Part shown: one piece after another, positions 45,612 through 52,582 of the stretch
How positions within the stretch are numbered: position 1 is the first letter of the stretch
Layout of the letters: every line of letters starts with the position of its first letter
NCBI RefSeq assembly: GCF_018446385.1
Contig: NC_055989.1
Coordinates: 131,963,004 to 132,027,003, forward strand
Direction: 5' to 3'
Length of the DNA stretch: 64,000 nucleotides
Origin: Zingiber officinale
Taxonomy: Eukaryota; Streptophyta; Magnoliopsida; Zingiberales; Zingiberaceae
Made by a program: the position numbers and the translations under genes
The notes under the pieces: model-generated
What the model was told of the DNA's origin: nothing
The model's input: only the letters and a program-made list of their open reading frames with translations
Databases searched by the model: none

Positions 45612-45621
45612 CCGCGCGCGA
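45612..45621. repeat. Target site duplication, left copy (10 bp)
   Basis: CCGCGCGCGA here and at 51943-51952 brackets the element. Ten bases is within the 8-11-bp range of MULE insertions. Two bases (CC) separate it from the shared terminus AGTCCAGATCC on the left. Confidence 0.75.
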
Positions 45622-45623
45622 CC

Positions 45624-46061
45624 AGTCCAGATCCTATGCGCCCGTCTCCCGTGCGCCCTCTGCGCCCGTCGCTACGCGACAAAAAACCCACGCGCTAAGC
45701 ACGTGCGTTTCTCCGCTCCAGTAATAAAACCCAGCTCCAACGCACACATATCGTTTCCTGCTGATCGGTCTGTTGACCGATCAGCAAGAATGCTGATCGG
45801 TCAGCAGACCGATCAGCAGGAATGCTGATCGGTCTTGCTGACCGATCAGCATTCTAGCAGGAAACTTTATTAACTTTTTTTAATTTTTTTTCTTTTTTTT
45901 TAAAAAATAAAATAATAAATAAAAACGTTTCTAATACATATAATAATTATACAAGTCCAATATACTTCGATCCATATTAATCCTAATAAAAAATAGTAAA
46001 TACTAATGTTATATTTTTGTAATATTAGGATAATTAGTAGGCATTAACGATCAGTCTGCTG
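45624..46061. repeat. MULE left terminal inverted repeat, with palindrome cluster
   Basis: Matches the reverse complement of 51464-51942 from AGTCCAGATCCT to CGATCAGTCTGCTGA. Positions 45755-45855 hold a dense run of TGCTGATCGGTC/GACCGATCAGCA palindromes, followed by an AT-rich part. Paired half-sites near MULE ends may be transposase binding sites (inference). Confidence 0.88.
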
Positions 46062-46092
46062 AAAAAGCCCGTCGAAAAAGCCCGCTTCTCCT

Positions 46093-46195
46093 CTCCGCTT
46101 CTTCTCCAGCCGACGACGGAGCTCTCTTCGCTTCTCCAGCCGACGACGGAGCTCTCTTCGCTTCTCCAGCCGAAGACGGAGCTCCCTACGACCGC
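46093..46195 (+). repeat. Three tandem 30-bp units in the transposase leader
   Basis: CTTCTCCAGCCGACGACGGA plus GCTCTCTTCG occurs twice exactly and a third time with small changes. It lies in a GC-rich stretch (46065-46280) that probably is the 5' UTR exon; GGAG|GTAACA at about 46280 could be its donor. Confidence 0.8.
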
Positions 46196-46843
46196 AGGAC
46201 CTCGCGAACCCTAGCTCTCCGCCGATTCCCTCTACGCCCTCTGCGCCCGCTGCCCCGTGTGCCCTCTTCGCCCGGAGGTAACAAAGATTGCATCATAACG
46301 AATTATGAATTTTAGTTGGCCTTGATATTTGGGTGGCTACATTGATGTTTCAATAACTTCCTTATCATTTCTAATTTTGTAAATGTCACAGAAAAATCCT
46401 GTGCTCAACCATGTTACTAAAATCCTAGATATTGGTTTTGTATCTAAGGACATGCTTGATCCTTATGTTGGAGTAGGAAACCTCATTATTTCTCTGTTTA
46501 TCTTACTTGCTCATGCAAACTGGAACCTAAAATTTTAAGTTGAACTAATGGTAAATTACTGCTTCAAATCTTGAATTTTTTTGCTAATTGGCCGCAGCCT
46601 CGCGCTCTGTGAATGAAACCTGTTGTGATTACTGAAAGCACAGCACTTTACAGTATATTGTCCATTGTTCTGGATCAGCTTGAAGTGCTTGCACATTTTC
46701 AGGATTTTTCTGTGACATTTTTTCACATGTTAAGTTTCCTAGAAAGTTGTTCATTGCTATTTGTTAATAATAAAACTGATATTACTTAATACTGATTGTA
46801 GAACAGATCAGAAGTATCCTCTGAAAGGTGTTCTTGTTAAGTC

Positions 46844-49413
46844 ATGGAGGGCGAATCTATGAGTTGTCGTAGGTTGAATTTTGATGAGTCAATTGAAGAG
46901 TATTCTGAAGCAAACCAAGGCTGTGGTGATTATGAAGTTAATATAGAAGAAAGGGCTGATGAAGGTAATAAGATTCATAGTGCGTTATATTGAACTTTAT
47001 ATACTTCGTTTTTTTACATAATTTGATTATCTATGTGCATTGTTAATTGATTTGTTTGCATTAATTGATTAATTTTAAAGGCAATGAAGATGACACAGAG
47101 ATTTTCCCCCCATTAAGCACAGATGAATTGGTGCCAAAAATTGGTATGAAATTTCAAACAGAAGAGGAAGCGTATGACTTTTATTTGAAATATGCTAAAC
47201 AAGTTGGATTTAGCATACGAAGGACAAGAACCCATAATGATAATTCGGGCAGATTAATTGTCAGGACGTTTTGTTGTAGTGCACAAGGAAAAAGGGGAAA
47301 GGACAAACGAGATATTTATGTGAAGCAAAGTTGTGCTGAGACAAGATTTGGTTGTGATGCTAAACTGAGGATTAGTTGTCGAAATAATGACAAGTTTTGT
47401 GTGGTGAACTTCATTAAAGAGCATAATCATTATCTTTCAAGCCCAAACAAAACACATCTCTACAGATGTCATAGGAACATATCTTCTTCTGCAGCGATAC
47501 AAATTAAGATGGCAAGTGAGGTGGGAATCCCCCCAAAAGCATCTCATGATCTTATGATGAGACAAGCAGGTGGGAGGGAGAATTTAGGGTTTATTCCTGA
47601 AGACTATAAGAACTACTTGCGATCTAAAAGAACTAGAAATATGAGAGTGGGGGATACAGGAGGTGTTCTAGAATATTTGCAGAAAATGCAATGTGATGAT
47701 CCAAATTTTTTTAATGCTATTCAAGTTGATGAAGATGATTTGATCACAAACATTTTTTGGTCTGATGCTAAGATGAGAGCTGATTATGGCAATTTTGGAG
47801 ATGTTGTTTGTTTTGACACAACCTATAGGAAGAACAATGAAAGTCGTCCAATTGCATTGTTCGTGGATGTTAATCATCATAAGCAATCCATAATTTTTGG
47901 TGCAGCTTTATTATATGATGAAACTACTTTGTCATTTGAATGGTTGTTTGATACCTTCACTAAAGCTATGTCTGAGAAAAAACCAACAACTATTCTTACA
48001 GATCAAGATGCTGCAATGGCAAAGGCTTTAGCTTCCAGATGGCCTGAAACACATCATCGTTTATGCATTTGACACATTTATCAAAATGCCGCAATACATT
48101 TGAGTGGAGTTTTTTCTCAATTCAAAGAGTTTGCTAAAGATTTTGCCTCTTGTATATATGATTTTGATGAAGAGGAAGACTTTCTTTCTACTTGGAACTT
48201 GATGTTGACTAAGTATGCACTTGAAGATAATGATTGGTTGAGACATTTGTTTAGCATAAAGGAAAAATGGGCGTTAGTATATGGAAGACAAATATTTTGT
48301 GCGGATATGACTACAACCCAAAGAAGTGAGAGCATGAATAGCATTTTGAAAAGGTATGTCACTTATCAGCATAAGTTTTTAGAGTTTTTCAATCACTTCG
48401 AAAGATTGCTTCAGGATCGTCGATATGAAGAGTTAAAAGCATATTTTAGATCCAATTCAAGTGTTCCATGTTTATTGTATCCGGTTGAAATATTAAAACA
48501 TGCTAGTTATACTTATACTCCTGAGGCATTCAAGTGTTTTGAAAAAGAATGGTATAAATCTCATGATTCTATTGTAGAAATTTGTGAGATTGTTGGATCA
48601 CATGCAACATACAAAGTTACTTCGCACAAAAAGAAGCACCATCATATAGTTACACTCTATTAATCTTCTGAAAAAATTCAGTGTAGTTATAGCTGTAGAA
48701 AATATGAATTTGCTGGGATTTTATGTTCTCATATTTTGAGAATATTTTCTATGAAAAATATTATGAAGATCCCAAATGAGTATATTTTGGAAAGATGGAC
48801 AAGAAATGCAAAAGGTGGATACTTTGAAGGTAATGATACAATTGTGAACAAAGATAGTTTGGATCCAAAAATTCTTCACAATATGCGATATAGAGATTTG
48901 TGTGGGTTATCTGTTCAATTGGTTACCAAAGCAGCAGAAAGGGATGACACCCACATGGTTGTTAAAAATGCTATGTTGAGCTTATGTAAGATGGTTGATG
49001 AAAAATTACAAGTTAATGAATCAATTGTGCATCAATCAAATCTTAGCCAAGAAGCTAGTGAGTTGGTTCAATCTCTAGATGACACAACAAGAAATTTGAA
49101 TGAAACAGAGTATCAAATTGGCGAAGGAAACGATCTTACAGTCAAAGGAATTAAACCTAAGAAGAAAACAGTTTCAGGCAAGAGGTTGAAAAGAGGCATA
49201 GAACAAATTTCTAGAAAAAAGAAAGGGGCAAGCAAAACTAACCAAACTCCAACAATTGTTCAGGTTTCATTCTTACTAATATTAGATTTTTTTTGTATGA
49301 TGTTACATTTAAAAAGCATATAGAATTAAATAATTTTATTTTTTTAATAGGGTATAGAAGATCCCAATATAGAAGATCAATTTCCACCACTTTTGCCAAC
49401 ACAACTATTTCAG
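46844..49413 (+). pseudogene. FAR1/MULE transposase with two in-frame stops
   Basis: Exon 46844-46964 starts MEGESMSCRRLNFDES; its last base joins in phase to 47081-49263, then a small exon 49351-49413 and perhaps others follow. Domains in order: FAR1 DNA-binding zinc region (GMKFQTEEEAYDFYLKYAKQ, CDAKLRI, EHNHYLS), MULE DDE core with first Asp in VVCFDTTYRKN, second in ILTDQDAAMAKAL and Glu in TTTQRSESMNS, then a SWIM zinc finger (CSYSC, then ILCSHILRIF) and a basic KRLKRGIEQISRKKKGA tail. TGA at 48070-48072 replaces the conserved Trp of the RLCIWH motif, and TAA at 48661-48663 lies before the SWIM finger. Everything else stays in one frame, so decay is recent or slight. FAR1/FHY3 light-signalling factors derive from such transposases. 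Confidence 0.88.
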
Positions 49414-49699
49414 GTTTACTTATTTTTTAACATTCCAAAATTAAATATTTATTAATAAATTCAGGCAACTATCTCAGGCTAACTTTGTTAGTGATTATTA
49501 TCAGGTGACTTCCTCAACTTCAAAATTTCAGACTGCTATCTCAGCTTTGGACAACAGATTAAACGAAGAACAAGTAAGATGAATACCACCTGCTATCATA
49601 TTTTATCATGAGTATTATTGTCTTACCTAATCTGCTTATTATTGTTTTGCCTACTCTCTACTTCTCACATAGTTATATTCCCCCCCTCCCCTTTTGCAG

Positions 49700-50068
49700 C
49701 GAAGATATCCACCTACTGGATACCACTCGCTGGATACCACCTGTTGGATACCGCCTGCCAGATTTTTTCCTCCAGGACATCCACCTACTGGATATCCACC
49801 GTCAGGATATCCCGCATCTGGATATCCACCTTTCGGAAATCCTCCAGTTGGTTATCCACCTTCGGGATATCCCCCAGTTGTTATCCACCTTCTGGATATC
49901 CACTCTTTGAGTATCCTGGTACATCAGCTCCACACCACGGTGAGTCTCATTTTTTATTACCAATATTCACATATCAAGTTTATAGGTGACATGATGTTTA
50001 CATGTGGGCATATTCTGAATACAGGCGGACAGCACGGGCATCGAAAGGAAAAACATGGTACCTCTTGA
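49700..50068 (+). pseudogene. Captured GYPP-repeat fragment, glycine-rich protein A3-like
   Basis: After a TTTTGCAG acceptor the exon (49700-49939) reads RYPPTGY and then a run of GYPPSGYPASGYPP-type repeats, switching frame before YPGTSAPHHG, with a GTGAG donor inside the HHG codons. A second exon at 50025 gives GGQHGHRKEKHGTS and a stop. Tyr-Pro-Pro-Gly repeats followed by YPG.SAPHH and a Gly/His tail are typical of plant glycine-rich A3-type proteins, which split there by an intron as far as I recall. The frame is damaged. It could instead be a degenerate tail of the transposase gene. Confidence 0.5.
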
Positions 50069-50490
50069 ACAAATAGGAAAAACATGGTACCTCTTCTTCT
50101 GTAGGTACCTCTCGATCTTTTGTTACAGTGTAAGATTGCTTATGTAGCAGGAATTTGGTACACCTCAAATTAACTGCCTTAGTTAGAAATGCTACATGTA
50201 TTATGTAGGTATATGCTAAACTGCACAGATTGTTTCCTTCCATATATAAACAAATTTCTCAATTCAATTGGATTTTTTTTGTTGAAAATATTAGTTCTTA
50301 TTATACAATTCCTTTTGGTGATGTTTAGTAATGGCTAGTTCCTTGATTCAAGTCATACAGTTTTGTGTTTTGAGTTTCATTAATATTATTGACGATCCTT
50401 TACAATGAACACAAAGTACTTGTCATTCGTGTTAAAAATCTATTTGATGTAAGTATATTGTCTGTTCAATATTATTTCTATCTTGTGTAG

Positions 50491-50795
50491 GAAAGTTCAG
50501 CTTGGGTTACTTCACATTTTGGGCAATCATTGCCGTCGCCTGGGGTTCTATTGCCTCCGCCTTAATCATAGTCTTGCCAATACTGGAAAGCTGGAGGACA
50601 ATTACATGTGTCTTGAGTGGCATGTTCACCAACGATGCTTTGATTGAAAAGGTTGATGAAATGAATATCCGGATGCGTGCCATCATGTTGGCAATGCCCG
50701 AAATTGAGAGACACTACTTGCTGGAAAAGGGCACGGCAAAGAAACTTGATTCATTTGAAGAGGCAAACACCGGTGTCCCAGGTGGTGGTTGCTGA
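50491..50795 (+). pseudogene. DUR3: Captured C-terminal exon of a DUR3-like urea transporter
   Basis: A TTGTGTAG acceptor precedes an open frame to TGA at 50793-50795: a hydrophobic helix (GYFTFWAIIAVAWGSIASAL), then LPILESWRTI, MFTNDALIEKVDEMN, IRMRAIMLAMPEIERHYLLE and an end GVPGGGC. That is the last transmembrane helix and cytosolic tail expected of plant DUR3, a high-affinity urea/H+ symporter of the SSS family of about 700 aa. The other helices are missing. The exon entry is phase 1, so it needs an upstream exon; here the nearest are the GYPP exons and the transposase. The assignment is from memory. Confidence 0.62.
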
Positions 50796-51240
50796 ACTGT
50801 GGCTGCTTGCTATGAGGAACTTCGCGACTTTGTATCATCTATTATGTGCTGTGTAAACTACTTACTAAAGGTGCATAATTTGTTGTACGCTATGCTCTTG
50901 CTTTTCTCCTTCAGCTTTGCTCAGTTTCCAAGATTTTAATGGCAAAAATATTACTGTGTTTGACATAAGATTTATTTTGAAAATGGTGTAACACTTTCAG
51001 TGATTCGAATTGACCCCTATCTTCGATCAATTCTACCACAACCCATGTTTCCTAAATTTTGTGGAATGATGCCCATGAATCTTATATTGAGCATAAGAAA
51101 ACTGTTAACTTGAACTATTATGTTTTGTTAAAACTATCCACAAAACATTATGGCATCTGTTCAACAGGCTCACACTTTAGTTCCTCATCATGTCACCCAT
51201 CATATTGAAAGTTTAGTTCAGAAACATATTGTGAACTCAA

Positions 51241-51470
51241 AGCCAGGTGGTTATCTGATCGATCACCAGACCGATCAGTAACCGATCAGTAACCACCGAG
51301 AATTACTGATCGGTCTACAGACCGATCAGTAACCGATCAGTAACCACCGAGAAGTTACTGATCGGTCTGTGGACCGATCCACAGCAGGCAACGGAGGCAA
51401 CGGAAGGATAGGGGGATCGGTCTGTGGACCGATCCACAGAAGGTTGATCGGTCCACAGACCGATCAGCAG
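51241..51470. repeat. Subterminal array of GACCGATC/GATCGGTC palindromes (MULE right side)
   Basis: Many copies of ACCGATCAGTAACC, CTGATCGGTCTGCAGACC-like and GGATCGGTCTGTGGACCG hairpins follow one another, just inside the right TIR. They share the GATCGGTC core with the TIR palindromes but have a different outer context (GTAACCACCGAG; TGTGGACCGATCCACA), so they form a second set of half-sites. Confidence 0.85.
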
Positions 51471-51942
51471 ACTGATCGTTAATACCTACAAATTATCCTA
51501 ATATTACAAAAATATAACATTCCTAATATTACAAAAATATAACATTAGTATTTACTATTTTTTATTAGGATTAATATGGATCGAAGTATATTGGACTTGT
51601 ATAATTATTATATGTATTAGAAACGTTTTTATTTATTATTTTATTTTTTAAAAAAAAAAGAAAAAAAAATTAAAAAAAGTTAATAAAGCAAACATTAGTA
51701 TCTTCCTGCTGGAATGCTGATCGGTCAGCAAGACCGATCAGCATTCCTGCTGATCGGTCTGCTGATCGATCAGCATTCTTGCTGATCGGTTAACAGACCG
51801 ATCAGCAGGAAGCGATATGTGTGCGTTGGAGCTGGGTTTTATTACTGGAGCGGAGAAACGCACGTGCTTAGCGCGTGGGTTTTTTGTCGCGTAGCGACGG
51901 GCGTAGAGGGCGCACGGGAGGCGGGCGCAGAGGATCTGGACT
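51464..51942. repeat. MULE right terminal inverted repeat
   Basis: Reverse complement of 45624-46061 with indels; the segment CCTAATATTACAAAAATATAAC is present twice here (from about 51490) and once on the left. It ends GGATCTGGACT, followed directly by the target duplication CCGCGCGCGA (51943-51952). Confidence 0.88.
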
Positions 51943-52582
51943 CCGCGCGCGATGATCTCCTGGGACTGGAGTGGACAGCTGGCGATCCACGTCGTCCACC
52001 ACGTCCCTATCGCACTCGGAGGCGCCCAACTCTGATGAACACGTAGACTGGTCATTCATTGAGCCGCCGCACGCCGGCGTTCATCTCCCGGATTTTGCGG
52101 CGTCCATGGAGGACTTCTCACTCGGCCTATGGTTCTCGGCGACGGCGCCGCCGGCGGAGGAGCAACACAGCGTTGACTTCGAGCCCAATGCTTTCCTTTG
52201 GAGCTTCTGAAGGATCACCGCTGTAAAAACAGCACGAGGTGGAGCTCTTGACGTCATTTCTCATAATAAGGGAAACAACATTCACTAATTCATTCAAAAT
52301 ATTTTTTAAAAATTATTATTCATTGGACATTATTTTTATTTGTTATTTTTTTGGTGAAATTTTTATTTGTTAATTTGTCTGCACAACCACCGACAAATTT
52401 TGGCCGTTTGCTGTCGAGTAAAAACATTTGTAATCAAATTTGATTTTATATATATTTATATTCATTTGCTCTCATATTTGCTTATTATCTCTTCAATTTT
52501 GTGAAAGATAATTATGTTGGAAAAAATATGTTCGTGTGTTAGCAAATAGATATCCTAGGCCACAAATTTGGGCGTTCAAAAC

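Follow-up and report, generated by a model that had tools for sequence, protein, structure and literature searches.

Transposase-bearing Mutator-like elements of ginger with a 3' half that probably takes up and exchanges host gene fragments

Introduction

MuDR and FAR1-type Mutator-like elements (MULEs) such as Jittery encode a transposase with FAR1, MULE and SWIM domains. A non-autonomous CACTA element of soybean reportedly shows alternative splicing of captured gene fragments. The subject of this analysis is a MULE with long terminal inverted repeats (TIRs), which spans positions 45623-51943 of a 64,000-nt stretch of the ginger (Zingiber officinale) genome (C4:131963004-132027003, hereafter the window) and carries a transposase region followed by fragments of host genes. 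The comparison of its copies suggests, with a probability of roughly 0.8, that it belongs to a transposase-bearing FAR1/MULE/SWIM family of ginger, in which the 3' half is a cassette for host gene fragments that were captured, exchanged and spread.

The closest described elements are Pack-MULEs, defined as non-autonomous and without a transposase (PMC4858842, PMC8903248). Those of rice, maize, tomato and Arabidopsis share with the ginger element the Mutator-type TIRs, a target-site duplication (TSD) of about 9 bp, the presence of several host fragments and the possibility of chimeric frames, but the ginger cargo rides in an element bearing the transposase that Pack-MULEs lack. As the survey pipelines are described in the same two sources, elements matching a transposase are dropped or re-classed before captured genes are searched for, and elements like the ginger family would thus be missed by both. 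MULEs carrying KIU/Ulp1, reported from Arabidopsis and also from grapevine, melon and rice, likewise combine coding genes of their own with a host-derived domain, according to a 2026 review (PMC13317346). In that description, the Arabidopsis elements are of the non-TIR kind and hold one old, conserved Ulp1 cargo, whereas the ginger family has long TIRs, differing cargoes and no sign of cargo conservation; a Pfam scan of cargo and donor peptides, covering part of the open frames of the element, revealed no Ulp1 domain. MuDR is described as having two convergent genes (PMC3310237). A second convergent gene occurs in relatives of the ginger element as well, and the transposase is of the same FAR1-MULE-SWIM make-up as in MuDR and Jittery; however, in ginger copies with DUR3 or FRIGIDA-like cargo, the convergent gene was not found and the 3' half consists of captured DNA. 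With the soybean CACTA element the ginger family would share the joining of captured exons by splicing, except that here the captured exons would be spliced to the transposase. Among the open-licence papers listed by the searches (subscription papers being outside their scope), judged by title and start of abstract, none describes a transposase-bearing TIR-MULE family with exchanged cargo.

Results

Close copies share a transposase and differ in cargo

The searches spanned the 3.09-Gb ginger genome in 211 contigs with both haplotypes. Contigs with adjacent numbers often acted as pairs (e.g., C17/C18, C13/C14 and C7/C8), and a phased assembly with 11 chromosome pairs has been published for ginger 'Zhangliang' (PMC8342452). 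At least 23 close copies, 96-100% identical in the transposase region, contain both the transposase and an intron-bearing A3-type GYPP fragment. This number is a lower bound, as 40 of 483 candidates were scored in the transposase search; the same 23 loci were recovered with the GYPP part, for which 30 of 30 candidates were scored (27 of 27 for the DUR3 part). None of the 11 full DUR3 copies and none of the 23 GYPP copies was without the transposase region.

Downstream of about position 50097 (50076 in one subfamily), the cargo diverges into DUR3 (11 copies), HMG-CoA synthase (HMGS) with kinase-side DNA (8 copies) and an antisense FRIGIDA-like fragment (4 copies). Donor-type genes were located at other places in the genome, on two contigs in each case, with the DUR3, HMGS, kinase-like and A3 donors on neighbouring-numbered (homologous) contigs. 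The HMGS donor lies at C11:134.40M and on C12, and its exon was recognised by Pfam with E = 2.1e-23; the cargo of copy C8g is 93-95% identical to it. Over the final 172 nt of the query, seven of the eight HMGS types also match DNA beside a kinase-like frame on C18 and C17 (98% and 97%, respectively), the kinase match of this frame being under the Pfam cut-off, and the HMGS-type copy C11b matches only the first two thirds of the query. The FRIGIDA-like donor, 90% identical, is located at C6:1.717M and on C50 (Pfam Frigida, E = 3.7e-18 for the host gene).

Between subfamilies, the outer 75-100 bp or so of the TIR were similar and the inner sequence was not (left arms of the window copy and C1g, right arms of C11g and C4g). 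In seven of the eight HMGS types, a right end could not be recognised within the sequence retrieved, and C19b has its transposase and GYPP parts separated by about 7 kb. An additional copy of the HMGS cargo (L072, C1:5539504-5540515, 92%) was noticed, around which the 3 kb fetched matched neither the TIR nor the transposase, GYPP or DUR3 parts of the window element.

The captured fragments retain donor introns

Features of the window element are collected in Table 1. Positions 49779-50031 match an A3-type gene on C13 and C14 at about 80% across exon-intron and intron-exon borders, in agreement with the initial annotation, in which the GYPP exons were taken for host gene fragments. The host protein begins with MGGGKDKHDESDKG and contains GYPP repeats; it is presumably an A3 protein, and Pfam gave only a weak, sub-threshold XYPPX match. 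The GYPP exon has 240 nt in the window copy vs. 241 nt in most DUR3 copies.

Positions 50090-51245 recur at 96-100% identity, the window included, in 11 places and match, at 87-94%, a host gene located on C18 and, as a counterpart, on C17, with weaker matches at other loci. The host coding stretch (two exons joined, including the last one) matched solved chains of the DUR3 urea-proton symporter with E <= 1.4e-130. The window exon alone matched no Pfam family and nothing significantly in NCBIfam (best E = 0.094). The first annotation of this part as a DUR3-like last exon was correct with regard to homology and too narrow in extent, as DNA of an earlier intron and the 3' region were captured too, and a host segment of about 1.97 kb is absent between the pieces at 50116-50397 and 50395-51248. 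Since introns are retained, the DUR3 piece was captured from the genomic DNA of the host gene, and retroposed capture was rejected. The transposase, GYPP exon and DUR3 exon all lie on the + strand, in the single orientation originally described.

The frame of the DUR3 exon reaches its own stop codon in 9 of the 11 copies, C3 having 10 additional nt and C2 lacking 1 nt. The comparison of the exon between copy C9a and the host gave dN = 0.026 and dS = 0.15, values shaped chiefly by the host gene. Between the two host alleles, 8/95 intron, 10/305 exon and 12/417 3'-region positions differ, nearly as many as between C9a and the C18 allele (8/95, 16/305 and 18/419, respectively), so that the capture is poorly datable. 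Of eight differences between the window copy and C9a over 819 compared DUR3 positions, seven fall within the 305-nt exon at 50491-50795, perhaps due to conversion from another DUR3 copy. Two further loci, L049 (C1:92.80M) and L050 (C12:64.06M), have the same TIRs, no transposase match and 175 nt of the DUR3 exon with an inverted 50-nt piece, which together could form a hairpin; for L050, a single TIR was found within the 1.6 kb fetched.

Table 1. Features of the ginger MULE, in positions of the window
Feature	Position	Strand	Remark
Left TSD GCGCGCGAC	45614..45622	.	final base unlike right copy; compared with sister C4b
Left TIR and subterminal inverted repeat	45623..46062	+	96-97% complementary to right arm
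Transposase exon 1 (predicted)	46844..46964	+	768-codon frame together with exon 2
Transposase exon 2: FAR1, MULE, SWIM domains	47081..49263	+	domains scanned on sister C9a
Transposase tail exon, 63 nt (predicted)	49351..49413	+	some distant relatives resemble 49377-49420
Transposase tail exon, 69 nt (predicted)	49505..49573	+	followed by GTAAG donor; two old relics without donor (by eye)
Captured A3-type GYPP exon, 240 nt	49700..49939	+	about 80% to host gene C13:26.10M / C14:20.84M
Captured A3 intron	49940..50024	+	aligns to host gene over both borders
A3 second exon, start	50025..50068	+	stop codon at end in fused frame of sister copies
Captured DUR3 intron piece	50116..50397	+	94% to C18, 91% to C17
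Captured 3' end of last DUR3 intron, including AG	50398..50490	+	3-nt overlap at junction with preceding piece
Captured DUR3 last exon to own stop	50491..50795	+	open in 9/11 copies
Captured DUR3 3' untranslated/downstream DNA	50796..51248	+	host comparison
Right TIR and subterminal repeat	51464..51943	-	arm comparison
Right TSD GCGCGCGAT	51945..51953	.	by eye

The transposase is open in sister copies

In exon 2 of C9a, Pfam detected FAR1, MULE and SWIM domains above the cut-off (PF10551, E = 2.5e-30; PF03101, E = 3e-21; PF04434, E = 9.5e-8), which confirmed the predicted FAR1/MULE transposase; a ZSWIM RNaseH-like domain was also found in this open copy. The window copy has in-frame stops at codon 371 (48070-48072) and codon 568 (48661-48663) and, with its GYPP exon one base short as well, is not a working autonomous element. 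The initial view of an element that keeps its transposase therefore fails for the window copy and holds for six of the 11 DUR3-carrying copies (C9a, C9b, C11, C16, C7 and C2). Besides the window copy, the frame is interrupted by a stop in C4b and C5a, is without a start in C5b and is frameshifted in C3. Among all 23 close copies, eight are open: six of the DUR3, two of the four FRIGIDA and none of the eight HMGS types. Homologs of the transposase tail at C6:124.03M and C13:26.18M, considered as host genes, were rejected as such and are decayed MULE relics.

A fused reading frame is predicted in several copies

When the predicted exons 49351-49413, 49505-49573, 49700-49939 and 50025 onward are joined, the frame of the transposase leads into the GYPP repeats and stops in the second A3 exon. 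From its ATG to the A3 stop, this fused frame is uninterrupted in 8 of the 23 copies, which belong to two subfamilies, and all eight have GT/AG at the four splice positions checked. The tail alone is open to the A3 stop in 17/23 copies, three of which (C4b, C16g and C20g) are without one acceptor AG in the alignment. In the open DUR3 copies, the phase at the A3 exon end suits the DUR3 exon; skipping of the second A3 exon would by arithmetic yield a transposase-A3-DUR3 frame that, in 5 of 11 copies, runs uninterrupted to the DUR3 stop. A phase match of this kind is expected by chance in one case out of three. The chimeric RNAs proposed in the initial annotation would be possible in such copies as far as frames and splice dinucleotides are concerned. 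Owing to the two stops and the 1-nt loss, the window copy is unable to make either the transposase-A3 or the transposase-A3-DUR3 protein as it stands.

An exon-trapping fusion with the A3 GYPP repeats might have been produced by a 5' splice site newly gained just ahead of the former end of the transposase, with the 3' cassette behind it (HMGS with kinase-side DNA, FRIGIDA-like or DUR3) being swapped. This proposal, drawn from reading frames and splice signals, is regarded as unlikely. Even odds are given to the simpler case of passive cargo, in which the fragments hitchhike, neither a fused transcript nor a fused protein is made, and the open frames reflect recent origin. An in-frame join is not a rare event at a single new junction, given the chance mentioned above, and the whole fused frame, retained in fewer than half of the copies, is lost in the window copy itself. 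Ratios of nonsynonymous to synonymous change (dN/dS) between transposase copies ranged from 0.46 to 1.39 in the 18 pairs computed, and the DUR3 exons of the nine open copies vary at seven third-position and six other sites of 300; the changes in transposase and cargo are too few for a decision on selection. Hitchhiking does not by itself account for a frame open in copies of two subfamilies, or for a GTAAG donor placed exactly where the frame requires it, after 49573, and missing by eye in two decayed relics.

Ends, insertion site and spread of the element

The inverted arms of the window element (45615-45863 and 51703-51951) are 96% identical and their pairing extends to 46062/51464, which upheld the long TIRs of the initial annotation. 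The comparison of the ends of 11 DUR3 copies indicated GAGTCCAGATCC...GGATCTGGACTC as the family termini and, in place of the 10-bp TSD first annotated, one of 9 bp, within the 8-11 bp characteristic of MULEs; the 10-bp CCGCGCGCGA duplication is a product of small border changes in the window copy, with GCGCGCGAT seen on both sides of the sister copy C4b. The TSD matched at 9/9 positions in five DUR3 copies (C4b, C16, C3, C7 and C2) and at 8/9 in three (C9b, C11 and C5a); it was disturbed in the window copy and not found in C9a, and C5b is without a left end. TSDs were computed for C16, C3 and C7 and read by eye for the remaining copies. Clusters of GATCGGTC palindromes lie near both ends (45755-45860 and 51255-51470), and similar ones occur in the MULEs C1g and L063.

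A paralog on C10 (71%) spans the insertion site, which places the window insertion inside a copy of an AP2/DREB-type gene. The AP2 match of this gene is just under the Pfam cut-off, and the DREB label is our assumption. The tandem sister C4b lies 20,447 bp downstream (C4:132028750-132036237; loci L036, L024 and L016), at the same site in a sister AP2-type gene, and the gene and the MULE were apparently duplicated as one unit. As the window copy and C4b share one insertion site, the 11 DUR3 copies represent 10 insertion sites.

The spread of the captured exons, initially suspected from the window alone, was borne out by these near-identical copies at 10 sites, and flanks and TSDs differ among the other DUR3 copies. 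Joined flanks were searched for three insertions, those of C7, C16 and the window. For C7, a full empty allele was found on C8 (405 contiguous nt, 98%). For C16, the left flank alone matched the counterpart on C15, the right flank being repetitive. The right flank of C16 (C16:4530460 onward) starts at the edge of another many-copy repeat. At least 10 opposed TIR pairs, 0.6-1.4 kb apart, were present among the matches listed; these are too close to enclose a transposase, and the transposase thus probably moves short elements too.

A convergent GRF-like frame in distant relatives and HMGS types

Three distant relatives (L063-L065; 83, 84 and 87%) have no GYPP exon and hold a convergent frame, which resembles GRF zinc fingers under the Pfam cut-off. 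The GRF-like frame is present in five of the eight HMGS types at 53-56% protein identity, and no match to it was found in the 11 DUR3 or four FRIGIDA types. The HMGS types without a match are C4g, whose sequence reached the right end, C8g and C17g. A 16-mer found at the junction in all four FRIGIDA types occurs also in HMGS-type elements, and the host HMGS intron differs from it at two positions. In an unrooted tree of 22 rows (C19b omitted), the DUR3 clade was supported at 100/99 and the FRIGIDA clade at 100/100. When the three distant relatives and C19b were included, DUR3, FRIGIDA and C19b were grouped at 86/77. Replacement of the 3' cassette is indicated by these alignments and trees, which argue with moderate strength for the order of events; HMGS cargo as the ancestral state is weakly supported and is not settled by the tree with the distant relatives.

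Discussion

The history favoured here would begin with an ancestor that had the transposase and a convergent GRF-like second gene and gained first the A3 fragment and then HMGS with the kinase-side piece. HMGS and the GRF-like gene would have been replaced by DUR3 in one line and by the FRIGIDA-like fragment in another. Capture and exchange would have occurred at the DNA level, probably in the repair of an excision or replication gap by copying unlinked genes, with template jumps during repair such as the one at the 3-nt overlap where the DUR3 piece skips 1.97 kb. The DUR3 type would have spread by cut-and-paste to its 10 sites with its own transposase, open in 6/11 copies, or with one acting in trans, and the window copy in the AP2/DREB-type gene would be a member now without an intact transposase.

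Several observations weigh against this history. C8g and C17g, which belong to the HMGS types lacking a GRF match, are represented by sequence without a recognised right end, and the 16-mer shared by FRIGIDA and HMGS types is short. The HMGS types stand on one side of the unrooted 22-row tree at 84/75 only, and the tree with the relatives leaves them unresolved, requires two changes for DUR3 itself and places the HMGS-type copy C19b among the DUR3 and FRIGIDA types. Though supposedly older, the HMGS cargo (93-95% to its donor) is no more diverged than the DUR3 cargo (87-94%), and not one HMGS-type copy has an open transposase. With regard to spread, the C16 insertion was matched to its counterpart by the left flank only, and the search with joined flanks revealed no empty allele for the window site.

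Among the explanations that do without this history, a composite origin independent of repair is unlikely. In this model, described for Pack-TYPE elements in PMC8903248, two MULE ends flanking a host gene are moved together and deletions follow. Four TIR matches are clustered within 4.6 kb at C1:92.80M, and composite units could therefore form in this genome; however, in the ginger family pieces of unlinked genes adjoin inside an existing transposase element, and no internal TIR was seen in the window copy.

It is highly improbable that the DUR3 and GYPP parts belong to another element nested between the TIRs. The captured material does stop near short GATCGGTC palindromes at 51255-51467, which could be remnants of such an element. 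Yet within 49440-51500 no inverted-repeat pair of at least 20 nt encloses 49586-51248, the 14 pairs listed being GYPP repeats, the GATCGGTC cluster and one 23-nt pair (83%, 49974/51186) inside the cargo. Eleven copies show this composition, most of them with 9-bp TSDs flanking the outer TIRs, and donor introns are retained. The nested element was rejected because of the recurrence and the missing enclosing pair. Non-homology of the two exons, or a second element around them, had been named beforehand as the outcomes that would speak against the initial annotation; both exons are homologous to host genes, and no second TIR-like pair of at least 20 nt surrounds them. The least probable explanation is that copy number and sites are artefacts that stem from the assembly or from duplicated haplotypes. 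Two haplotypes are indeed present, as is a tandem sister at the same site, but the other copies differ in flanks and TSDs and the count of 10 sites already merges the tandem pair.

Studies of gene capture by plant MULEs usually deal with transposase-less elements. The ginger family, read as a transposase-bearing lineage with an exchangeable 3' half, indicates that transposase-bearing elements capture too and can exchange cargo, and that captured cargo can occupy the place where relatives keep a second gene. As near-identical copies, donor genes and one or more empty alleles are available in a phased genome, capture borders can be located with single-base precision, as is required to answer the open question of how capture works. 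If the tentative fusion were real, active copies would produce transposase-A3 proteins and, via exon skipping, transposase-A3-DUR3 proteins, and with every change of cassette, other C-terminal tails or 3' ends would be tried out. Such a fusion of transposase and host exons would offer a transposon a direct way of becoming a new host gene.

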